A stretch of DNA of 64,000 bases from Caldithrix sp. (lineage in GTDB: Bacteria > Zhuqueibacterota > Zhuqueibacteria > Thermofontimicrobiales > Sulfurfontimicrobiaceae): assembly GCA_020722815.1 (NCBI GenBank), contig DYKB01000001.1, positions 248,001 to 312,000 of the forward strand. The letters run 5' to 3'. Both the position numbers and the translations under genes were made by a program. The notes beneath the pieces are model-generated. The model did no database searches. It had not been told where the DNA came from and saw only the letters and a list, made by a program, of their open reading frames with translations. The stretch's first letter is position 1. Every line of letters begins with the position of its first letter. Shown here one piece after another: positions 49,728 through 64,000 of this stretch.

Positions 49728-50882
49728 ATGGTGTATTTTATTGATTTAAAAATGGAGTTTGTCATGTTTGAACAAACAAGCGAAGTTAATGCAGGAGGCA
49801 AAAAATTTCAGGTTCAAACGCAATTTATTGAGTCCCCTGCCAAAATACTTTCCGCTGTTTTTTGTAATTCGGCCTTACTTTATGAAAAAAATTTCGCGAT
49901 TGAAAATACGAATCCCGATCAAACTCGGGAAAAAACGTATATTTTGCATCGCGAAACGATTGCTGATATCGAATTACTCTTTTATATGGCCGATAAAGTT
50001 CGTTCCATTCATCACCCAGTTTCAAATATTAAATTAGGGATCGTCTTTTTAAAGCGAAACCTCATTGACGAAGCCATAGAACAGTTTAAATTCGCCCTTG
50101 AGCGCGACGGGAAGATGGTTGAAGCAATTACCAATCTCGGGATTGCCTATTACCTTCAGAAAAATTATCCGCTGGCGCTGGAGACTTTTCAGCAGGGCAA
50201 AGCACTGAATGTCGAATATGCCGATCTCTATAACTACCTGGGGCTGGTAAATCTTGAATTGAACCGGCTGGATGCAGCCCTGCTCGATTTTGAACGGGCG
50301 TTGAAGATCAATCCGGATTATCCGGCTGCGCATTTTAATATGGCGCAGCTTTATCTCAAAATGATTTTTAAAAAAATTGAACAAACCGATGCCCCGGGTA
50401 CAGAAAATTTTAAAAAATTGGCCCTGAAGTATTTCCGACTGGCGGCGGAATTAATGCCACCCGGTAATATCAAATTTTTTGACCGAATCATTGAATCGAT
50501 CAATTCCAATTCCTTTAATACAATTCCTGAACTGGTTGAACTGATTAATAAAAATAATCCGCCGGTTTTTGATTATAGCCTCGAAAACGAATTTTATCTA
50601 AAATTTATGTTTGGTGGGAAAGGCAAGGACGATCTGTATATTGAAGACTACATTCGTCAACAATTGCAGCTCATTTCTGACCATTCGAATTATGCCGACC
50701 TGCATAATAATTTAGGCATCGTCTATCTAATTCAATGTCGCAATCTTTTCCTGAAAGCGCTGGATGAGTTTCGCGAGGCTTTAAAGATAAATTCCGACTT
50801 TAAAAAAGCCGAAAAAAATCTCAAACTGGCTGAAAATGATGGAAAAGGATTTTTAATTTTATTGCGCGCAATTTTAAAGTAA
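49728..50882 (+). CDS. TPR-repeat protein (start may be ATG 49764)
   Basis: TPR units: AITNLGIAYYLQKNYPLALETFQQGKALN, ADLYNYLGLVNLELNRLDAALLDFERALKINPDYPAAHFNMAQLY. Confidence 0.9.
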   Translation: MVYFIDLKMEFVMFEQTSEVNAGGKKFQVQTQFIESPAKILSAVFCNSALLYEKNFAIENTNPDQTREKTYILHRETIADIELLFYMADKVRSIHHPVSNIKLGIVFLKRNLIDEAIEQFKFALERDGKMVEAITNLGIAYYLQKNYPLALETFQQGKALNVEYADLYNYLGLVNLELNRLDAALLDFERALKINPDYPAAHFNMAQLYLKMIFKKIEQTDAPGTENFKKLALKYFRLAAELMPPGNIKFFDRIIESINSNSFNTIPELVELINKNNPPVFDYSLENEFYLKFMFGGKGKDDLYIEDYIRQQLQLISDHSNYADLHNNLGIVYLIQCRNLFLKALDEFREALKINSDFKKAEKNLKLAENDGKGFLILLRAILK

Positions 50883-50994: not shown

Positions 50995-51300
50995 GATTTT
51001 AAATATCACCTGCTTTTAACGTCCTGGTAATAAAGCATTTTAAGCATTTGCTTTTTTAAAATCCACCTCATCTTAAACGTGATTAAGATAATCTGATAAC
51101 CCTAAAAAAATTATTGAGTAATACAGTTCAAGGATAATATATATTTGAAAATCAAAATGTTAACCAAAAAATTAAATCATATTGCTGGTATAAATTTTGC
51201 TTTAATAAACAGAACCGATAATTTGTTTCTGAATGAACTTTGATGAATTCGTTTTATGTCTCAGATGGAAACAGGATGAATCGATGAAACAGGAGTTTTT

Positions 51301-51759
51301 ATGTTTAAATCTATATTTATGAAATTATTAATAATTTTCATTTTTGTATTTAATGGAATGGGTGCTGCCCAGGATGTGCTGGAGATTAAACCAACATTCG
51401 AGCAGGTAAAAGCCTTAACGATTTACGAAGTCAAATTGAAATGTTCGCAGCCACTTCCCGCAGATGCGAAATTTCAGTTTACATTTCCAGCGGCAATGGA
51501 CCTGTCAAAAGTCCGAATGGCCGGATCAGCCACGATTAATGGCGGATTTAAAACGCAGGCTAAAGATAACCAGGTGATTATTAAGCGTAGCGGGCTGGGA
51601 GATACGATTCCAGCTCATACGCCGGTCGATTTGATGTTTACCTCGGTCATTAATCCGGAGGAGGCGGGTAATTTTGTCATTAAAGGCGAAATTCAGACCA
51701 GCGATGGCAAACTTCTTCTCAATAAACAGGTAACCATAACTATTAAAGAAAAAAAATAG
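51301..51759 (+). CDS. Small secreted Ig-like-fold protein
   Basis: Signal peptide ending GMGAAQ; beta-rich remainder; precedes giant surface protein in same orientation. Confidence 0.7.
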   Translation: MFKSIFMKLLIIFIFVFNGMGAAQDVLEIKPTFEQVKALTIYEVKLKCSQPLPADAKFQFTFPAAMDLSKVRMAGSATINGGFKTQAKDNQVIIKRSGLGDTIPAHTPVDLMFTSVINPEEAGNFVIKGEIQTSDGKLLLNKQVTITIKEKK

Positions 51760-51823: not shown

Positions 51824-54800
51824 ATGAAAGCAGGAAGCAAAAAAATTGATTTTCGTTTATCTGTAATATTTGTTTTTTTATTATTAAAGATATTATCGGC
51901 AGGTGAATTAACAAATGTAAAAGTTAGTTTAATTGATGATGATCGAATGGGCGAATTAACCACCGTAAATCTTAAATTTGACATCGCAAATCCTTGGCCG
52001 GCCAATGGAAAAATTCGATTCTTTTTAGGAACTCGTAAATCGGGAACGTATAAAGGTCCTTATTGTAATTATGTGGCGCTTGCTCAATTTAATCATGCAG
52101 GGCGTGGTGGTCTAATTCGTGAGTATAGCGATGATTCAACCGTTGTTTTTGTCCGCGATGGAAGTGGAGCTGTCCTTCCTAAAGATGCAACCATCGATAT
52201 TACATTTGGATTACTATATTTGAATGTAGATGAACCGAATGAAGACTTTAAATTTTTAAGGATAGAAACACGTGGGGCTTCTGTAATAGATTTTGTCGAA
52301 AATGCTGGAAAATTTCCAATTCGAATTCACCATTTTAATCTTTCAGGCATACCGACCAGTGTTATAAAGGGAACAGATTTAGGTGCTAATAATGTTTTAG
52401 TTTCAGCACGTGATGCGGACGATGGGGTTGTACCTAAATATTTAGGAAGTATTTATTTTAGTAGTTCGGATGCAAGTGCACTTTTACCGTATACAAAAGC
52501 ATCTCCCTATACTTTTCAGGGGTCTGATAATGGTGAAAAATCGTTTGACGGGATCGATTTTACCTTTAACACGACGGGAGAACAGACCATTTCAGTCGCC
52601 GATACTGGATCAATTAATACTACTTCAACAAGTGAATTATTAGTTTTTAATACGCAGGGCTATGTCAAAATCCAGTCCAGTTCCAGTGACCCGGCGACGG
52701 AAATCAAAGATAAAACAATGGCTTCCGGGGATTCGACCACGATGTATGCCGTTCAGTACGATTCTTATGGAAACGCCATGGGATTGGTTAATGTCACCTG
52801 GTCGGTTAAAGGGGAAATTGGCCATCTGGGAAGTAACCTGACCACGGTAAATAATAAAAATACCGTAAAATTTTATGCCAGCAAAGCCGGCAGTGGCCGG
52901 ATTGAAGTGACACATTCGACTGCACTTGGCGATGAAACCGGCGTGATTACCGTAAATCCGAATGCTTCGGCGATAAAAGTAGTCAAAATTTGTGATTTGC
53001 CGAAAGGTGTTGGGGAAGATTGGACGAAAAAGGCATCGAAAACATTTACAGCCGACGATATTCTGCATTTTTATGCTGTGGGTTATGATGAGTATGGAAA
53101 TTATGTGGCAGATATCAGCACGGTGAATTGGCGAGTTGAAAGCTATGATGGCGGGCTCCTTACGGGGAGCGGTTCGCATTTTGCTTTCAACCCCACAAAA
53201 GTAGATGCGAATTGTGAGGTTCGGGCGATAATTACCAGTCCTCCCGGAATATCGGATATTCGTGTTCAAAATATTGTTATCAACGTTGGAAAGCCGGCGT
53301 CATTAATGACCCGCTATCGCTATGTTGAAGGGGGCGTAACCAAAACAGATGAATTGAATGATCAAACATTAGAAGCGGGCAAACCTTTAACGGTATTTGT
53401 GATTGCGACCGATTTTGATAATAATCCGATTGGTGATATTGTAGATGCGAATTGGAGCCTGAGTAGTGGAAAGCAGTGTGGCTATTTCAGGCAAGATTCT
53501 ACTGACATCAATGGGAAGCGATATATATTTAAGCCAATCAAATCAGGCGTTTGTATCATTCGGGCAACTTCCAAATCAGATACGACAATTTTTGATGAGA
53601 GCGGGATCATTACTGTTGTTGGTGGGGAGGCCGTTGCCTTAAAAATTTCTACTGAATCAGGTCGAATTAAACCAATTTTAAATGACACAACAATTACCTG
53701 CGATGCTTCTTTAATATTGTGGGCATTAGGAGCTGATCGTTATGGAAATCGAGTCGGGCTGGCCAGTGATGCTGATTGGGATAAAGATGGAAATCTTGAT
53801 TCGCTTGCAATTGATAATGCGACAAATATATCTTTTAATCCTAAAAAGGCTGGTTCATCTGGGCATATTATCGTACAACGCAAAGGTTCTACCTGGAAAC
53901 CGGATACGACTAAATTGATTAGCGTTGTTGCCGGAAGTCCCCATCATTTGCGGATCGCCAGGGGACAATTGGGAAATACAGGCAGAATACCGGACGACAC
54001 GACCCTGGTTGTTGGTCAGGATTCGCTGATCTTACATGCCGCGGCATTCGATGCAGATGATAATTATACCGCGGATATCAATGCTGATTGGTATTCAGGC
54101 AAGGATAAAGCCACTATCACAAAAGTAGCCAATTATGTTTATTATTATCCCAAACAGGAAGGCGTTGATCAGATTGTGGTGCGGAAGAATGGTCTGATAG
54201 AGGGCTATTCTCCCTTTATCACTATCCAAAAAGGACAGATTGATTCGGTAGTTATTCAGGATGCGCCAGGCCCGGAAGGGAAGAAAGTAAACACGGTGAC
54301 CATGACCACCGATAGTATCCTGCAATTATATGCTGTGGGGTATGATTTGGGAGGGGATTGGGTTGGGCCGGCCAATGTGACCTGGAAATCGGATAGTACG
54401 CTTAATCCAGTCATCAATGACACCATTCCCAAATCAAACTTCAATTTTTCGCCCCAATCTATTGGTAGTGGTAGAATTTTTATTTATCATAAAGCCACCG
54501 AAAATCGGGATACAACCAATACGATTACTGTCTTTGCCGGTCAGCCGCATGGTATTATTAACTTAACCGCTACACCGGAGTCTATTCCGGCGGATGATTC
54601 GACAACAACTACTATAAAATCTGGTGAAATAAAGGATCGAAAGGGCAACCGGGTACAAAAGGGCACGAAAATTACGGTCCGAACGACATGCGGAACAATT
54701 ACAACCGCGGATGCCGATACGCTTCAACCAGAAATTCAGGTTTTGGTAAATGAAAACGGGATAATCGAATTTGAATTAAAAGCCGATTCCGGCGGGGGCG

Positions 54801-57800
54801 AAGCGAAGGTTATTGCTTCCGGCGGGACAGCGCAGGGGATTACTTCAGTTTTTATTACGAATATCAGTCTTTCCGCGATTACGAGTAACTCCAGCAAAGT
54901 CAGTTTGGGCCAGAAAAATGTCCAGGTCTGGATGGATGTCACCAATCTCGGTAATGATCCGGTCAAGATTGAATCGGTAGCCCTCAATTTTTTGGGAAGT
55001 GGCGGCGAAAATTTAAACGACAACTATAATCCTGTCGCACCGAGCCCGTTACCGATACTTGTCGGTGGAGCCAGCATCCGTTTGACCTTTTCTGTTGAGG
55101 TGAAATCCGATGCGAAAATTGATACAAATGTAACTGTTGATGGGAGTGTTTTTACCGAAATTTCAACTATCAGGGCATTACATGCTAACAAGCCGCATCA
55201 TTGGTCGGTTCAAAATCCGGCATCGTTTCAAATTATTAAAGTTCAGGCACTCGAAGAAGTCGTTTCGCGCGGTGATCAGGGGCTGGATATTTCAGTTTGG
55301 CTAAAAAATAATAGCGGTCCAAGTGGTGCAACCGCCATGATTGAAAATTTATATCCGACATTTAAAGTCGAATTAACCGGATCGAATGTTACCTCACAGT
55401 ATGTCATTGTTCCCGTGGGCGAATTGCCGACCCAGTTGGCCGCGGAGGAAGATACGGTTGTCAATTTTAAAGTGAATGTCAAGACAGGCGCGAATACAGG
55501 GAAAATTATCATTGATGGTGCGGTTTCGGGGAAGGATGCCAATTCGTTTTCGAGCATTCTGGATACCCAGTCAGACACTACCGATAGCTGGACGGTTCAG
55601 GAGGCGGCTAATGTCAGTATTAAAAAACTGGCGACCTCCCAAACTACAGTGACTCGTGGTCAAACAACGCCCTGGTATGTGGAAGTTTCCATGGAAAATA
55701 AAGGCGGGAATCCGGTCCAACTGGATAGCTGTCAATTACAATTTTTTAAAGTAAATGAAGAAATTACTTCCGAATATCAATATAGCTACCCGGATACATT
55801 TGCGAGTGGCGATACGGTCATTCTGGACGATATTGAAGTTTTAAATATCGCAGTCAACAGTACAGGGCCAAAAACCGGTATTATTACCTTAAGAGTCCGG
55901 GCTTTCTTCTCCGATGTCGGTGGAAGCGGACAGCAACTGATTAACCAGAAGGATACCTGGATTACGGTTCAGGAGCCTTCAAATGTGACAATATTAAATG
56001 TCAAACCTTCACATCCGGAGGCCACGCAAAACCAACAAAAAGACTGGAAGGTTTTGGTCGCCATGCAGAACATGGGAGGAAGTGATATTGACGTTAATAC
56101 GGATTCCCTTGTAACGCATTTGAAATTTAAATCCAATGCAAGTTATGTGGTCAAACCGCCCTATTTTAAACGAACCCAAAGTATTCGTTTAAAAAAATTG
56201 GAAATGGACACACTGATTTTTGTAGTGGATTCAACGCCGAATATTAGCGCCGGGGTGGATAGCATTCAAGCGCTTGTTCAGGTAAAAGAGAGTAACAGCG
56301 CAAAAGATACGACACTAATGGGAAAGACAACGATTACCATTCAGGAGCCGCCGCGGATTCGTATTTTACAGGTGTTGAATCAGGCGCGGAACAAGCCCGA
56401 AGTGAATCGCCTGCAGGCTTTCAATTTGAATGTTGTTGTTGTGAATTTTGGTAAGCAGACGAATGATGAGGTTGATAGTGTCGTGGTGCGGATTACTTCC
56501 AATAAACAGGTCGGGGAATTGGGACGCCTGGTGATTGATAACGTCAAACCAATTGTTGACCATAAACTGGTTTTCCCGGTGACCGCTGCTGATACACCTG
56601 GACAAAATGAAATTTTTACAGCGACAATCCTGTCGGCACTTGCGGATAACACCCGGGAACCAATTACAATCGATCCGCCGGTAAGCGATACAACCATGGC
56701 ACGAATTGTGAAACCGGCTGAACTGGAAGTCATTAAATTTGATATTATACCGGATTCGGTTCAGGCCCGGCAGTATAAACCGTATCAAGTTATCCTGGAT
56801 GTGCAAAATAAAGGTCAGGGCGCTGTTGAGTTTAGCAAACCAACAAAAGATGATATTGTTTTTAAAGTGAATAATGTCAAGCAAACCGACTATCAGATTA
56901 CACCGCCGACAGCATTAAATGGGAAAGATTTGTATCTTGAGGGTGGAAAGCGTGATACCCTCACTTATACGGTGGTTGGTACCGGTGCCTACCCCGGAAA
57001 AGTTGATGCCGAACTGGTCTTGAATCCAATTGATCGAAATGATCCGACGAAAATTTTTCCGGTAAAAGAACAGGATAGTGTTTTTCTGAAAAGTTCAGCC
57101 AAATTGCGAATTGCCAGTATTGAGCCGAATGCTTTTATGAATCGTGATGTCGGGCAGGTCAATAAAGGGCAGAAGTTTAAGGTTCGCGCGGTTGTCCAAA
57201 ATGGTGGTGCTGAGCGAGCTGACCGCGTGTATGTTCGCCTGAAAACGCAGCATACAACTTATGTTACTTTGATCGATACATTGAAATATATCGAATTTAT
57301 TGATATCGAACAACATGCCATTGCCGAATTTGAAGTCGAAGCGAAAGAGATTGCTGATCAGGTGGAATTTACTGCGCAGATTGATTCGGCAACGGGTCAT
57401 ACCAGTAAATTACCCGTTTCAATAGAGATATCATTCCCGCCCAAAAAGGGATTTGTCAGAATTCATGAACCGTCGAAGTTGGAAATTACCCTTCAGGGTC
57501 AAAATGGAATGACGGCATTTGCGATGGATTATGAATTCACCATGTCGGCGCTGGTCAAACGGACCGGGACATCATTAATCGATAATTCTGGAAAAATAAA
57601 GTTGCAACTCCCTGAAGGTTATCAACTTCTATCGCCCCAAACGGTGAATTTTAGTGTTTCAGAACAGACAAGTCAGGAGATTGCGACCTGGAAAGTCCGT
57701 TCGCCGAATTCGAAAAAGGATAAACTAAAATTTATCGCCAGTATTGTTTCAAAGCCAGGTGATCTGTATTCAAAACAATTGGCGATAATTGATTCAAGCA

Positions 57801-60079
57801 AAGCGCAGGTAATGATTGAAACTGTCGAGAGTAGCTTGATTACGAATGTGAATGTTGTTTCGCCGGATGGAGCCAGAGACGGGATAATTTCAACCAGTCA
57901 GACTTTCGTGGTTCAGGCATCGGTAAGTTATTCTGAGAATGTGAACAATTTAAAGTCACGGCTTGATGTCCCCGAACAATTTAGCATTAGTGATACGACA
58001 CAAATCCCCGGAAATCCTTACGTCTGGCGTTGGAAAGTGGTGGCACCGGCTATCAGTTCCAATGAAAAAGAATTGATTGTCAATGTTTGGGGCACCGAAA
58101 AAACACCCGATGATGTAACCAGCGTTCAAAAAATGGTTGTTACTACGGTAGGGCGCGCCAGTTTGGACCTCGAAATTAATACCAATGTCGGGGCGATTAA
58201 AGACAATCATTTACAACTTTCGGCTGGTCAAAAATTTAAATTTCTGGCGCGCGTGGTTAATAATGGAACTGCCAATGCGGATGGCAGTGGGACGATTAGT
58301 TTGAATTTGGGCAACTCGGGTTTAAAAACAGAGGATCTCCTGCAAAAATCTTATCAGGTTGATCAACTGATTACCTGGGACCTGATTGCACCGAATGTGG
58401 CGACGAGTGCGCAACCGATTACCATAAAATTGGAAAGCGTTCCCAATGATGAAAATAGTCAGGATGCGCCGGAGGTTACCAATCGAAATCGGCGGATTTT
58501 TGTTGAAACATTAAATCAAGGGGATGTCTCAATAACCAATCTTCAAATCAGTCAGCCAATTGGTGCAAAAGACGGAATCGTCTCGACCAATCAGCTTTTT
58601 CAGGTAAGTGCCAATGTTTCCTGGATCAGATGTCAGCAGATTCAGACCGAAGTCGTTTTTCCGGCGGCGTTTTTTTCCTGTGATGCGCCAATTCAGGAAC
58701 CGCAAAATTCAACCAATAACAGCGGTGAAAATGAGCAGGTTAATTTTTGGGTGAAAGCGCTATCAAATTCGACCCAGAATCAAAAGATAAAGATTTTTGT
58801 CCGGGGCAAAGATGCAAACGATCCGGAAAAAGTGCTGATTGATTCGACTGAAGTGCTCAATATTCGACTTGCAACCAACGCTGAAGCACGAATCCAGGTT
58901 AAAACTGAAACGCGGGATAATATTGTCACTGTCGGACAGCGTTTTCGGGTGAAAGCCTGGTTGAGCAATCGGGGTGAAGCCAGTTTGCAGGGATTTTTTA
59001 CAGCGGAAATCTATAAAGAATCGCCTGAATATACAATCGTTTCACCAATTCAGCAGACGGTTGCTTATAATGATACAATTATCTGGCTGGTTGATGCGCC
59101 TGATTTTCCCTTAACTGGCAAGGCGATGCGCGTAACTGTCGAAGACTGGCCACAGGATGAAAATACAAACGCAATTCCATTTTCAACTTTTGGTGAAAAA
59201 GAAATATCGGTAACGACAGAAGAGAAAAATGTCATCCTCGCGACCGTGCCCAATTTGACCCCCTTATCAATCACCAAGGGGGCAAAAAATGTGACGATGA
59301 TGGGTCTGATTATTCGCAGTTCCGGGAGTTCTTCCTCGAATAAACTGTTATTCAAGGGGGCCAGAATTAAATTAAAAGATCGAAAGGGTGAAATCATTCA
59401 GAACCCGTCCGAAGCAATTACACGAATTGCCGCCGTATCGTCCCGTAACCGGCAAGTGATTCTGGGTGAAATTAATCCGGTAACGCCTGAAACAATTTTA
59501 AAATTGAATTTCACGAGAATTGATACGGTTTATCCGGAAATAATCCGACCTGATACAGTCAATTTTATAATCGATATTTCGCCGGACATCACGATTTCAT
59601 CTTTTAATTTGGTGATTGATACGACATCAGCGTTAGTTATTGAAGATCAATATTCGGGTTTACCACCGAAATATATCAATCCCAATGGCACCTTATTGCA
59701 AAATTTAAATCTGGCATCCAATTTTACGGCTGTTCTGGAAGCAAATTTTAAAGCCACCTTTCTGAATTATCCAAATCCTTTTGGAAGCCGGGGAAAAGAC
59801 CGGACCAAATTTATTTACTACCTGGAACAGGAATCGGATGTTGAAATTAACATTTTCACCGTTTTAGGTGAATTAGTCTGGTCGAAAAAATATAGCCAGC
59901 ATGATCCGGAAGGTGCGGCAGGAATGCATGAAGAAAATAATTTGGGTTCCGGTGGTCCACCTATCTGGTGGGATGGTCGGAATGGAAATGGAAATAAAGT
60001 ACTGAATGGCGTGTATATTGCTGTTTTATCAACCGGTGATGGAAAACAGACCACTACGAAAGTGGCGGTATTGAAGTAA
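51824..60079 (+). CDS. Giant (2751 aa) secreted repeat protein with Ig-like/CARDB-like domains and C-terminal FlgD/T9SS-type tail
   Basis: Signal peptide; repeated ITVxxG..LYAVGYDxYGNYVxDI.. units, many VxNxGxxxVxxDS-type CARDB units, C-terminal NYPNPFGSRGKDRTKFIYYLEQESDVEINIFTVLGELVW...WWDGRNGNGNKVLNGVYIAVLSTGDGKQTTTKVAVLK. Confidence 0.92.
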   Translation: MKAGSKKIDFRLSVIFVFLLLKILSAGELTNVKVSLIDDDRMGELTTVNLKFDIANPWPANGKIRFFLGTRKSGTYKGPYCNYVALAQFNHAGRGGLIREYSDDSTVVFVRDGSGAVLPKDATIDITFGLLYLNVDEPNEDFKFLRIETRGASVIDFVENAGKFPIRIHHFNLSGIPTSVIKGTDLGANNVLVSARDADDGVVPKYLGSIYFSSSDASALLPYTKASPYTFQGSDNGEKSFDGIDFTFNTTGEQTISVADTGSINTTSTSELLVFNTQGYVKIQSSSSDPATEIKDKTMASGDSTTMYAVQYDSYGNAMGLVNVTWSVKGEIGHLGSNLTTVNNKNTVKFYASKAGSGRIEVTHSTALGDETGVITVNPNASAIKVVKICDLPKGVGEDWTKKASKTFTADDILHFYAVGYDEYGNYVADISTVNWRVESYDGGLLTGSGSHFAFNPTKVDANCEVRAIITSPPGISDIRVQNIVINVGKPASLMTRYRYVEGGVTKTDELNDQTLEAGKPLTVFVIATDFDNNPIGDIVDANWSLSSGKQCGYFRQDSTDINGKRYIFKPIKSGVCIIRATSKSDTTIFDESGIITVVGGEAVALKISTESGRIKPILNDTTITCDASLILWALGADRYGNRVGLASDADWDKDGNLDSLAIDNATNISFNPKKAGSSGHIIVQRKGSTWKPDTTKLISVVAGSPHHLRIARGQLGNTGRIPDDTTLVVGQDSLILHAAAFDADDNYTADINADWYSGKDKATITKVANYVYYYPKQEGVDQIVVRKNGLIEGYSPFITIQKGQIDSVVIQDAPGPEGKKVNTVTMTTDSILQLYAVGYDLGGDWVGPANVTWKSDSTLNPVINDTIPKSNFNFSPQSIGSGRIFIYHKATENRDTTNTITVFAGQPHGIINLTATPESIPADDSTTTTIKSGEIKDRKGNRVQKGTKITVRTTCGTITTADADTLQPEIQVLVNENGIIEFELKADSGGGEAKVIASGGTAQGITSVFITNISLSAITSNSSKVSLGQKNVQVWMDVTNLGNDPVKIESVALNFLGSGGENLNDNYNPVAPSPLPILVGGASIRLTFSVEVKSDAKIDTNVTVDGSVFTEISTIRALHANKPHHWSVQNPASFQIIKVQALEEVVSRGDQGLDISVWLKNNSGPSGATAMIENLYPTFKVELTGSNVTSQYVIVPVGELPTQLAAEEDTVVNFKVNVKTGANTGKIIIDGAVSGKDANSFSSILDTQSDTTDSWTVQEAANVSIKKLATSQTTVTRGQTTPWYVEVSMENKGGNPVQLDSCQLQFFKVNEEITSEYQYSYPDTFASGDTVILDDIEVLNIAVNSTGPKTGIITLRVRAFFSDVGGSGQQLINQKDTWITVQEPSNVTILNVKPSHPEATQNQQKDWKVLVAMQNMGGSDIDVNTDSLVTHLKFKSNASYVVKPPYFKRTQSIRLKKLEMDTLIFVVDSTPNISAGVDSIQALVQVKESNSAKDTTLMGKTTITIQEPPRIRILQVLNQARNKPEVNRLQAFNLNVVVVNFGKQTNDEVDSVVVRITSNKQVGELGRLVIDNVKPIVDHKLVFPVTAADTPGQNEIFTATILSALADNTREPITIDPPVSDTTMARIVKPAELEVIKFDIIPDSVQARQYKPYQVILDVQNKGQGAVEFSKPTKDDIVFKVNNVKQTDYQITPPTALNGKDLYLEGGKRDTLTYTVVGTGAYPGKVDAELVLNPIDRNDPTKIFPVKEQDSVFLKSSAKLRIASIEPNAFMNRDVGQVNKGQKFKVRAVVQNGGAERADRVYVRLKTQHTTYVTLIDTLKYIEFIDIEQHAIAEFEVEAKEIADQVEFTAQIDSATGHTSKLPVSIEISFPPKKGFVRIHEPSKLEITLQGQNGMTAFAMDYEFTMSALVKRTGTSLIDNSGKIKLQLPEGYQLLSPQTVNFSVSEQTSQEIATWKVRSPNSKKDKLKFIASIVSKPGDLYSKQLAIIDSSKAQVMIETVESSLITNVNVVSPDGARDGIISTSQTFVVQASVSYSENVNNLKSRLDVPEQFSISDTTQIPGNPYVWRWKVVAPAISSNEKELIVNVWGTEKTPDDVTSVQKMVVTTVGRASLDLEINTNVGAIKDNHLQLSAGQKFKFLARVVNNGTANADGSGTISLNLGNSGLKTEDLLQKSYQVDQLITWDLIAPNVATSAQPITIKLESVPNDENSQDAPEVTNRNRRIFVETLNQGDVSITNLQISQPIGAKDGIVSTNQLFQVSANVSWIRCQQIQTEVVFPAAFFSCDAPIQEPQNSTNNSGENEQVNFWVKALSNSTQNQKIKIFVRGKDANDPEKVLIDSTEVLNIRLATNAEARIQVKTETRDNIVTVGQRFRVKAWLSNRGEASLQGFFTAEIYKESPEYTIVSPIQQTVAYNDTIIWLVDAPDFPLTGKAMRVTVEDWPQDENTNAIPFSTFGEKEISVTTEEKNVILATVPNLTPLSITKGAKNVTMMGLIIRSSGSSSSNKLLFKGARIKLKDRKGEIIQNPSEAITRIAAVSSRNRQVILGEINPVTPETILKLNFTRIDTVYPEIIRPDTVNFIIDISPDITISSFNLVIDTTSALVIEDQYSGLPPKYINPNGTLLQNLNLASNFTAVLEANFKATFLNYPNPFGSRGKDRTKFIYYLEQESDVEINIFTVLGELVWSKKYSQHDPEGAAGMHEENNLGSGGPPIWWDGRNGNGNKVLNGVYIAVLSTGDGKQTTTKVAVLK

Positions 60080-60111: not shown

Positions 60112-62040
60112 ATGAAAGTGAAATATTTAATCATATTAGGATTGATAGGAGTTCTTTTCTGGCCTTCATCTTGGCTTGAGGCACAAAGTGGCGGGACTCA
60201 ACCCGTATTTCATGCATTGGGTGCAGGCGCCCGACAACTAGGACTTGGAGGTGCTTGTGTCGCCATGCCCTTTGATGCGACAACGGCTTATTGGAATCCC
60301 GCCGCGACCGATTATCTGGAACAGAATAATTTTTCGTTCTTTTACACAAATTTGCTCGGCGGTGCTTCCTACAATTTTATCGGTTATGTCCATCCGACCC
60401 TGACAATCGGTACGTTTGGTGCGGTAATGCTAAGGTGGGGAATTGATGGTATCAAAGAACGCCTGGATAGTCCGTACGAGATTGGCGAGGTCAGTCTGGT
60501 TAACTATGAATTTCTCTTCTCCTATGGTAAGGTTATTTTGCCCGATCATAATCTCTCGATGGGGATGAATATAAAGATTGATTACCAGGCATGGCCGGGA
60601 TTGAGTGAAAAGGCTGGCGATACGGGTGTCGGTGCCGATCTGGCCGTGTTTTATCGCCCGGAATTAGATGGAAGTTTAAAAGGTCTCGCCTTTGGTTTGG
60701 TCATGCAAAATTTCTTTGCGCCCAAATTAAAACCACTGGATGAATCAGACGCTTTTCCAGGAATATTCAAATTGGGGCTTGCCAAAACTTTTGAACTGGC
60801 AACGACGGGCAACCAGTTCAGTTTATTAATGGATCTGGATAAGGGGGCGTTGAATATCTTTAAATTCCATTTAGGGGGTGAGTACACTTACAACAATACG
60901 GTTATGATTCGGGCCGGTATGTATAATAATGAGGGTACTCACTTTGTCTTTGGCGCCGGTGCCAGGTATAATCGGTTTCAACTGGATTATTCCTATGCGG
61001 CATTAAATGTCGCCGATATGGGTTCGAGTCATCGGCTTTCATTTTCTCTGAATTTTGGTAAAACACGTTCAGAAATGCTCGAAATTGCCAAGCAACTGGA
61101 AATGGAACGCATTCGTGAAGAAGTTGAAAATCAACAACGACTGGCACGCGAACAGGAACTTAAAGAGCGGTTGGAAGAAGGCCGACGGTTGTTTAATGAG
61201 GGTGACTTTATAAAGGCCCAGATCGAATTTTCTGCTGTTTTACAAATTGATGAAGAAAATGAAGAAGCCAAAGAAAAACTGAATCAGGCAAAGATGAAAC
61301 AGGAAGAAGAACAGGATCGCCTGTTGAGAGAGCGTATTCAGCGCGAAAATCTGGAAAAAGAACAGGCGGAACTTGATCAATATATTCGAGAACATTGGGA
61401 AAAAGGCATTGTTTACTATGAAAAAGGTCAGTTTGAGGATGCCATTGATGAGTGGAATTTAATCCTCAAACGGGATCCAAATTACCAATTAGCGATTGAA
61501 TTTCGTGATCGCGCCCTGACCGACATGCGCAATGATGTGAAAGCGCTCATTCGCCAGGCAGAAAATCATGCAGCCAATCATAGTTATGTCGATGCAATTC
61601 GATTACTGGATAAAGCAAAATCGAAAAACCTTTCCGAATTGAAATTAGACGATGATATTGATGCGAAAATAGCACAATATAAGGAAGCACTTGATCTGGA
61701 GCATTTATATCGGACTGGTTTAAATTATTATGATAACAAGGATTACAATGAGGCGGCTGAGATGTTCCGAAAAGCGCTGGCCCTGGATCCGAAAAATAAT
61801 GTCATACAAGATTTTTATGAAAAAGCCAACGCCCGGGCGACGGCCACGAACGATCCATTGCCACCTGATTTAAAACAAAAATATTATAAAGGGGTCAATC
61901 TGTCGACAAATGGTCAATATGAAGAGGCATTGAAGATCTTTGAAGAGATATTAGCGTCACAACCTAACAATAAACGCGTCTTAACCACAATTGATAAAAC
62001 AAAAGAAAAGCTGGAAAATTCAAAGCGTTATAAAAATTAA
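60112..62040 (+). CDS. PorV/UPF0164-like outer-membrane beta-barrel fused to C-terminal TPR region
   Basis: GAGARQLGLGGACVAMPFDATTAYWNPAAT N-terminus typical of PorV/PorQ-like barrels; coiled/TPR region AAEMFRKALALDPKNN, YEEALKIFEEILASQPNNKRVL. Confidence 0.88.
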   Translation: MKVKYLIILGLIGVLFWPSSWLEAQSGGTQPVFHALGAGARQLGLGGACVAMPFDATTAYWNPAATDYLEQNNFSFFYTNLLGGASYNFIGYVHPTLTIGTFGAVMLRWGIDGIKERLDSPYEIGEVSLVNYEFLFSYGKVILPDHNLSMGMNIKIDYQAWPGLSEKAGDTGVGADLAVFYRPELDGSLKGLAFGLVMQNFFAPKLKPLDESDAFPGIFKLGLAKTFELATTGNQFSLLMDLDKGALNIFKFHLGGEYTYNNTVMIRAGMYNNEGTHFVFGAGARYNRFQLDYSYAALNVADMGSSHRLSFSLNFGKTRSEMLEIAKQLEMERIREEVENQQRLAREQELKERLEEGRRLFNEGDFIKAQIEFSAVLQIDEENEEAKEKLNQAKMKQEEEQDRLLRERIQRENLEKEQAELDQYIREHWEKGIVYYEKGQFEDAIDEWNLILKRDPNYQLAIEFRDRALTDMRNDVKALIRQAENHAANHSYVDAIRLLDKAKSKNLSELKLDDDIDAKIAQYKEALDLEHLYRTGLNYYDNKDYNEAAEMFRKALALDPKNNVIQDFYEKANARATATNDPLPPDLKQKYYKGVNLSTNGQYEEALKIFEEILASQPNNKRVLTTIDKTKEKLENSKRYKN

Positions 62041-62073: not shown

Positions 62074-64000
62074 GTGGCGAAGATTATTAAAGAAGAGATA
62101 AAAGTCCCCGCAAAAGAAAAAAACCTGGTTGAATTACGTAATTTTATTAATACCCTTTTTAAGAAACATCGAATTGATGAAAAGGTTACCTATGCATTCA
62201 AGCTGGTGGTTGATGAGGCGGCTACAAATGTCGTTAAACATGGACATTCAGGTAATGAGGGAATAATAACGTTACGTGCTTTCATCCGGAAGGAAAGCAT
62301 TACCATTTTGCTGATCGATAATGGCAAATATTTTGATCCCATGCGGGTACAAAATCCGGATCTCCAGCGTTATGTCGATACCAGAAAACGCGGCGGCCTG
62401 GGTATTTTTACCATTCGCAAGCTCATGGATTCGATTGATTATCGTCGAACAGAAGAGGGTAATGAATTACGTTTAACCAAAATGCGGGTTCGCCGAAAAA
62501 ACCGTCTGGCGATGTCCGTTCCACAACTTTCAATGACGATGAAAGCACGATATTCATTGGTGGCCTCTGGCATTTTAACCGTAATTATTCTGATTGTTTT
62601 TTTGTATTATTATTTTCGACATAGTGCCACAATCATTCAGGAAAACCTGGAATTAGGTTATATTAGTGCTGAATCGCTGGCAAAAACACTCACGAATGAT
62701 ATTGAAGATGAGGGTTTATTTAATGACCTGACGATGGTGCCCAAAATATCTCAAAAAAAAATTGAATTCGACAAGCTAATTTATGCGATTTTAGTCGTTC
62801 AGCCAACAAACGACATCTATTTTTCTACCGATGAACATTTTTCGGGGAAATATAACTTTCGGGAAACGATCGAAGTTATTAAAAATAATGTTCATCTGGT
62901 TCAAATTCGGCCAGATTTGATTGTTTATGACATCAACGCCCCAATCAATGATCTGGATGGTAAACTAGTTGGCCTGATTCATCTCTGGATTGACCAGAAC
63001 TACATCGAGCGTCTGATTAGTTCGAAGCGGTGGAGTGACCTGGTCAATTCACTTTTCGCGATGATTGGCGGATACATCGTCATCGTTATTTTTGTCTATA
63101 TGGTCATGACTCCTTTTCAGCGCCTTACAGAATGGGTTCGGGCGCAGGGACAGGGTGGAGAAATACAGGATCAAATTGATATCACCGATTCAGGAGAAAT
63201 TGGTGAAATTGCCAAAGCTTTTTCTGACATCACCACCAAATTTAAAGATTCTCAAAAAAAACTGGTACGCCAGGAACAGCTTCAAAAAGAGATGCAAGTC
63301 GCCAAGGAAATCCAGCAAACTTTATTACCGACTGAATTTCCTAAATTAGAAAGTTATGGCATTGATGCTTATTATGAGGCGGCAAAAGAAGTTGGTGGTG
63401 ATTATTTTGATTTTGTTAATGTGGATGACGATACATTAGGCATAGTTGTTGCTGATGTTTCGGGGAAAGGCATTCCGGGGTCATTGGTGATGACAATGAT
63501 TCGGACGGCGCTTCGAACGGAAGCCCGCGGCATCCTGAATTCTTCAGAAGTATTGGGCAAAGTTAATAGTTTTGTGGTCAATGATATGAAGAAAGGGATG
63601 TTCGTCACTGTTTTTTACGCGATTATCGATGCCAGGAAACGACGTATTAACTTTTGTTGTGCTGGCCATAATCCGATGATTCTTTATCGGGGGAGTACGA
63701 AAAAAACATATTTTTTAAAACCACATGGTTTTCCAATCGGTATCTCTTTACCGGATATGAGCCTGTTTGCTCAATCGTTGGAAATGGATAGTTTCCAGCT
63801 TGTTGAAGATGATATTTTAATATTTTACACCGATGGAATAACCGAGGCGATGAATCGCAAACGACAAATGTATGGGGAAGAACGGCTTCTTCAGATAATT
63901 CGTGAAAATGCAAATTTACCGGTTCAGTCGCTGGTACAACAAATAAAAGATGATGTTCACTCTTTCACTGAAGGTTTTCCACAAAGTGATGATATTACCC
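62074..64000 (+). CDS. RsbW-like HATPase + transmembrane sensor + HAMP-like + PP2C (SpoIIE/RsbU) phosphatase; runs off window end
   Basis: GTG-start frame, stop-free to the edge: VVDEAATNVVKHGHSG, LLIDNGKYFDP, RGGLGIFTIRKLMDSIDY; TMs LVASGILTVIILIVFLYYYF and MIGGYIVIVIFVYMVM; QVAKEIQQTLLP, AKEVGGDYFDF, VVADVSGKGIPGSLVMTMIRTALR, FYTDGITEAMN. Missing from supplied ORF track. Confidence 0.92.
   Translation, partial: MAKIIKEEIKVPAKEKNLVELRNFINTLFKKHRIDEKVTYAFKLVVDEAATNVVKHGHSGNEGIITLRAFIRKESITILLIDNGKYFDPMRVQNPDLQRYVDTRKRGGLGIFTIRKLMDSIDYRRTEEGNELRLTKMRVRRKNRLAMSVPQLSMTMKARYSLVASGILTVIILIVFLYYYFRHSATIIQENLELGYISAESLAKTLTNDIEDEGLFNDLTMVPKISQKKIEFDKLIYAILVVQPTNDIYFSTDEHFSGKYNFRETIEVIKNNVHLVQIRPDLIVYDINAPINDLDGKLVGLIHLWIDQNYIERLISSKRWSDLVNSLFAMIGGYIVIVIFVYMVMTPFQRLTEWVRAQGQGGEIQDQIDITDSGEIGEIAKAFSDITTKFKDSQKKLVRQEQLQKEMQVAKEIQQTLLPTEFPKLESYGIDAYYEAAKEVGGDYFDFVNVDDDTLGIVVADVSGKGIPGSLVMTMIRTALRTEARGILNSSEVLGKVNSFVVNDMKKGMFVTVFYAIIDARKRRINFCCAGHNPMILYRGSTKKTYFLKPHGFPIGISLPDMSLFAQSLEMDSFQLVEDDILIFYTDGITEAMNRKRQMYGEERLLQIIRENANLPVQSLVQQIKDDVHSFTEGFPQSDDIT

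Follow-up and report, generated by a model that had tools for sequence, protein, structure and literature searches.

Putative kinase-phosphatase gene and its operon

The window, i.e., the whole 64,000-nucleotide stretch analyzed (G000:C94:248001-312000), ends within a gene for a putative membrane kinase-phosphatase. The reading frame begins with a GTG codon at position 62074 on the + strand, which agrees with the N-terminal alignment of relatives, and stays open up to the window end; the gene extends beyond it, to G000:C94:313808, and in full (L003:1075-4809) encodes a product of 1244 aa. The order of genes at this locus (locus 1) is conserved: a small secreted protein, a giant repeat protein, a PorV/TPR protein, the kinase-phosphatase and a STAS protein, designated STAS-A. 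Here and below, neighboring genes are named from sequence resemblance and our own reading of the proteins. The features in the window are as follows.

51186..51200, +, sigma54-type -24/-12 element TGGTATAAATTTTGC upstream of the kinase operon; a one-mismatch site of a kind conserved in relatives
51301..51759, +, gene for a protein of 152 aa, probably secreted; opens the conserved operon
51824..60079, +, gene for a giant secreted repeat protein whose C-terminus is weakly FlgD-Ig-like; conserved, upstream in the kinase operon
60112..62040, +, gene for a protein with a PorV/UPF0164-like barrel and TPRs, a conserved neighbor immediately 5′ of the kinase gene
62074..64000, +, 5′ part of the gene for the 1244-aa kinase-phosphatase; the frame continues past the window
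62104..62481, +, HATPase_c_2, RsbW/SpoIIAB-like kinase domain, residues 11-136 (Pfam E=5e-25; conservation; Foldseek matches to RsbW and SpoIIAB)
62551..62607, +, first hydrophobic segment, residues 160-178 (hydropathy; present in most relatives too)
62620..63039, +, extracytoplasmic sensor region, residues about 183-322 (AlphaFold2 strands; weak Cache matches)
63052..63108, +, second hydrophobic segment, residues 327-345 (hydropathy)
63097..63222, +, HAMP-like linker, residues 342-383 (HAMP in 23/23 relatives at E<=0.1)
63424..64000, +, SpoIIE/RsbU-type PP2C, residues 451-647, the last of them past the window (Pfam SpoIIE E=5e-51; invariant metal-site Asp; Foldseek)

No Rfam family was detected in the window. 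A TPR protein gene lies before the kinase operon (49728-50882), and TPR genes resembling it were seen by eye in exopolysaccharide (EPS) clusters at L170 and L173. In one genome (G060, L175:7-5361), the PorV/TPR gene and the kinase gene form a single 1784-aa frame, which is topologically odd.

The complete protein thus has, in this order, a HATPase_c_2 domain, a transmembrane (TM) segment, the sensor region, a second TM segment, HAMP, the SpoIIE-type PP2C, a pair of helix-turn-helix motifs (HTHs, about residues 652-786), an acidic linker with a net charge of -64 and TPRs (about residues 1130-1240). The earlier note, made from the window alone, had described the RsbW-like HATPase, the two TMs around an extracytoplasmic region, the HAMP-like segment and the SpoIIE/RsbU-type PP2C core, all of which were confirmed; the HTH-TPR C-terminus and the STAS gene directly downstream lie past position 64000, out of its view. 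HAMP is matched in the protein itself at a Pfam E of 0.13 only, and in all 23 aligned relatives at E<=0.1 (best 4e-9). The sensor region has a dCache_1 match at E=0.085, and sCache_3_2 is matched in 4/23 relatives (best 8e-5), which together with the predicted strands suggests a Cache-like fold of poorly conserved sequence. In an AlphaFold2 model of residues 1-815 (mean pLDDT 76.9), the phosphatase part resembles SiaA, RssB and Rv1364c in Foldseek, Rv1364c being the top match of the model, and the kinase part resembles RsbW and SpoIIAB, whose models are also matched by the HATPase domain in a sequence-family search.

Residues E48, N52 and D82 of the HATPase are invariant in the 23 sequences holding them among 24 aligned homologues, and G84 and G107-G108-L109-G110 are invariant in all 24, as are D443, D461, D587, D639 and D640 of the PP2C. 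The N-box and G-boxes of a partner-switch kinase are therefore intact and the metal-binding Asp residues of the phosphatase are present, and because these catalytic residues do not vary, both halves look active, although an intact catalytic site can still be inactive or serve another substrate. A degenerate HATPase, which the earlier note had allowed for, is ruled out by the invariant residues. Of 60 genomes, 55 contain relatives matching at E<=1e-100, nearly always in stop-free open frames. The fusion is thus found as an unbroken frame across genomes of the phylum, and a stop or indel between the halves, a sequencing artefact or a frameshifted fusion is ruled out. No other PP2C match of this genome has a HATPase match in the same frame. 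Separate RsbV/RsbW/RsbU-like clusters lie elsewhere in the genome, e.g., on C183 and C153, and could cross-talk with the system described here.

Variants of the gene were also seen. In one family, a paralogue of 1638-1990 aa occurs (L162:3203-9175 of G016, also L163 and L164); the L162 protein has KVGLGIF at the GGLG motif, has apparently lost the first HTH, and continues with a long acidic stretch and repeated TPR-like segments. At L110 (G045), the kinase frame is shortened and STAS-A is apparently in two frames, which may be an assembly error.

STAS partners and the shared HTH module

The gene directly 3′ of the kinase-phosphatase gene (L003:4988-5692) encodes STAS-A, a STAS protein with a C-terminal HTH, and its paralogue STAS-B is encoded on contig C185. 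Both types are present in nearly all of the 60 relatives, and a STAS-HTH gene adjoins the kinase gene in most of the loci examined in the phylum of this genome and in Calditrichota. The STAS motif SSAGW is invariant in both paralogue groups (38/38 rows with letters). Serine S61 of STAS-A lies in this motif at what we take to be the phosphorylation position of SpoIIAA and RsbV; STAS-A, and STAS-B at the equivalent serine, would carry a phospho-acceptor-type residue. The AlphaFold2 model of STAS-A (mean pLDDT 84.6) contains a STAS fold, which matches SpoIIAA and RsbV structures in Foldseek, and a four-helix C-terminal domain; residues 133-165 between them are predicted with low confidence and probably form a flexible linker.

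The second HTH is common to the kinase-phosphatase, STAS-A and STAS-B. Profiles of the kinase HTH and the STAS HTH align in hhalign with a probability of 98.2 (E=3e-14), and a genome-wide search with the STAS-HTH profile returned these three proteins and no others (next match E=0.5), that with the kinase HTH profile only the kinase. Most of the other STAS matches in this genome are in frames too short to hold an HTH. The HTH region appears to resemble the DNA-binding part of IS481/IS3-family transposases: NCBIfam matches are modest, to IS481 for the kinase (E=7e-7) and to IS3 for STAS-A (E=4e-4), the scores of this genome's own proteins being below curated and Pfam cut-offs; an IS481-type protein of G173 aligns with kinase residues 660-786 (29.5% identity, E=7e-8); and Pfam HTH_32, HTH_28 and HTH_21 are matched in many family members. 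According to Pfam, however, neither the kinase nor the STAS proteins have the transposase catalytic domain. Searches of solved structures with the HTH profiles returned nothing usable, and a literature search on STAS-HTH proteins found no pertinent work.

The kinase HTH profile is near-universal in the phylum of this genome (76/82 genomes) and in Calditrichota, the phylum of the Calditrichia record G084 (39/40), and is rare elsewhere, with 8 matches outside its own phylum in a wider survey of 388 genomes. Because the matches in G195 and G336 have coordinates identical to those of Calditrichota-type genomes and that in G173 is a transposase-like protein, the enzyme is seen in few other lineages, namely those of G174, G258, G395, G326 and G418. 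A literature search on signaling in Calditrichota/KSB1 found no pertinent work.

Linkage to EPS genes and sigma54-type promoters

At its own locus (locus 2), STAS-B is followed by Wza-like, Wzc-like, epimerase and sugar transferase genes. It lies directly upstream of the Wza/Wzc-like genes in nearly all of 20 genomes and precedes them in G084 and G083 too. The link to EPS was found again in two further lineages: in G258, Wza/Wzc-like genes surround one that encodes a STAS protein carrying two HTH-like stretches, and in G418 such genes lie near the kinase gene itself.

The operons of the kinase and of STAS-B both carry conserved sigma54-type promoters. The window contains 12 one-mismatch sigma54-like patterns versus 9 expected, which is no excess over chance; what speaks for the site at 51186 is therefore its conservation in related genomes, TGG[CT]A-N6-TTG[CA] being found upstream of the kinase operon in 11 of the 14 genomes with the operon start in view, this genome included. 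Upstream of STAS-B, TGG[CT]A-N6-TTGC, which equals the known sigma54 -24/-12 consensus, occurs within 400 bp in 11/19 genomes versus 4/247 control genes (Fisher p=1e-11, an optimistic value because the pattern came from a dyad scan of the same upstream sequences). RpoN was found in all 18 genomes tested. In many genomes (e.g., L115 and L125), an imperfect inverted repeat, TTGTTTC-N5-GAAACAA, precedes the sigma54-type element of STAS-B and is possibly an activator site; it was scored on the same STAS-B set from which it was derived, so that its p-value is inflated, and at the kinase operon its enrichment is not convincing. No element comparable to that of STAS-B came out of a dyad scan of the region preceding STAS-A.

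A proposed dual-activity switch on STAS-HTH proteins

Taken together, the locus is read here, with a probability of about 0.55, as a SypE-like dual-activity membrane switch that controls STAS-HTH proteins governing EPS or envelope functions. An envelope cue would be read by the extracytoplasmic Cache-like domain, and the signal, passing through the TM/HAMP segment, would shift the balance between the RsbW-like kinase and the PP2C phosphatase, both of which would act on S61 of STAS-A and on the same serine of STAS-B. The phosphorylation state of the STAS proteins would then set EPS production and probably other surface functions, and the second HTH would define the set of partners by binding DNA, by bringing the partners together, or both. 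We infer the enzymatic activities, the in vivo substrates, which way the switch acts and its effect on EPS; STAS-B and EPS come into it through the shared module and the gene neighborhood. Bifunctional action on a STAS protein, as the earlier note had proposed, is well supported by anatomy, because both halves keep their catalytic residues and the downstream STAS gene has the invariant serine. Every defining part of an RsbW/RsbU/RsbV-type partner switch that can be read from sequence is present. That only one half is active in practice, kinase or phosphatase, with the other half regulatory, seems unlikely, since neither set of catalytic residues varies among the aligned relatives, even if one half of SypE can dominate under given conditions (PMC3610818).

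The role of the HTHs can be understood in two ways, each of which we regard as a serious candidate without expecting it to be the answer. If they are working DNA-binding domains, STAS-A and STAS-B would be phosphorylation-gated transcription regulators and the enzyme a membrane-tethered regulator that also contacts DNA; the apparent transposase resemblance, the net basic charge of the second HTH in all three proteins (+6 in both the kinase and STAS-A, +10 in STAS-B) and the inverted repeat upstream of STAS-B are consistent with this, but the proteins of this genome score below Pfam cut-offs, the first HTH of the kinase has a net charge of 0, and the repeat lacks convincing enrichment at the kinase operon and could serve a sigma54 activator. 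Alternatively, the HTHs may have lost DNA binding and now act as a docking module, pairing the enzyme with its two STAS substrates and keeping these apart from the cell's other STAS proteins. The occurrence of the module in exactly these three proteins, the lack of room for it in the mostly short other STAS frames and its attachment through a probably flexible linker fit such a role; however, PP2C phosphatases of this family owe their specificity to surface loops that recognize the STAS fold itself (PMC11418112), and an HTH is therefore not needed for recognition.

A classical anti-sigma switch, in which the HATPase half holds a sigma factor that is freed on dephosphorylation of the STAS protein, is quite improbable. 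The likeness of the HATPase to RsbW/SpoIIAB and of the STAS domain to SpoIIAA/RsbV would suit it, but no sigma gene was noticed among the identified neighbors, and membrane anchoring and fusion to a PP2C are not usual for anti-sigma factors. We saw no sign of an anti-sigma/sigma output, and the genomic links are to EPS genes. A more far-reaching version of the dual-activity switch is that a transposase DNA-binding module was domesticated phylum-wide in a membrane kinase-phosphatase and its STAS substrates, making an anti-anti-sigma-type protein into a phosphorylation-gated DNA-binding regulator of EPS genes without sigma sequestration; we offer this as speculation, rather doubtful at present. 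What a STAS protein does next has often not been worked out in partner switches, and for SypA it was still undetermined in PMC4517449. The STAS proteins described here carry a candidate output module that also marks the enzyme, which makes a compact three-protein circuit that is directly testable. The circuit also gives a way into the control of surface polysaccharide, whose regulation seems little known in the phyla that have this set almost universally.

SypE of Vibrio fischeri is reported to both phosphorylate and dephosphorylate the STAS protein SypA, and the pair controls a polysaccharide locus whose activator is SypG, a sigma54-dependent regulator (PMC3610818, PMC4517449). SypE likewise has an N-terminal HATPase kinase and a C-terminal PP2C on one chain and a STAS partner with a conserved serine, and the link to polysaccharide genes and sigma54 is also shared, known here from the genes. 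In contrast, SypE has a central REC domain, which is not among the Pfam matches of the present protein; TM/Cache/HAMP segments take that place, HTH and TPR parts are added, and the STAS partners carry HTHs. SiaA of Pseudomonas aeruginosa, a membrane phosphatase with two TMs, HAMP and PP2C that controls biofilm formation (PMC7647112), has the same TM/HAMP/PP2C arrangement (NCBIfam SiaA match at E=6e-11, below its cut-off), but in the SiaA/SiaB/SiaC system the kinase SiaB is a separate protein and no HTH is reported. Rv1364c of Mycobacterium tuberculosis also combines kinase and phosphatase on one chain, but its order is PAS-PP2C-kinase-STAS, the substrate being part of the same protein (PMC9138534). 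A single polypeptide with both activities, although plausible here, is therefore not unprecedented, and SypE already has the order with the HATPase first. What is unusual lies beyond the window: the HTH and TPR parts, the next-door STAS protein with the same second HTH and the second STAS-HTH protein that heads an EPS export operon. The best reading of the present protein is that it would work like SypE with the sensor side of SiaA, to which it adds the HTH and TPR parts.
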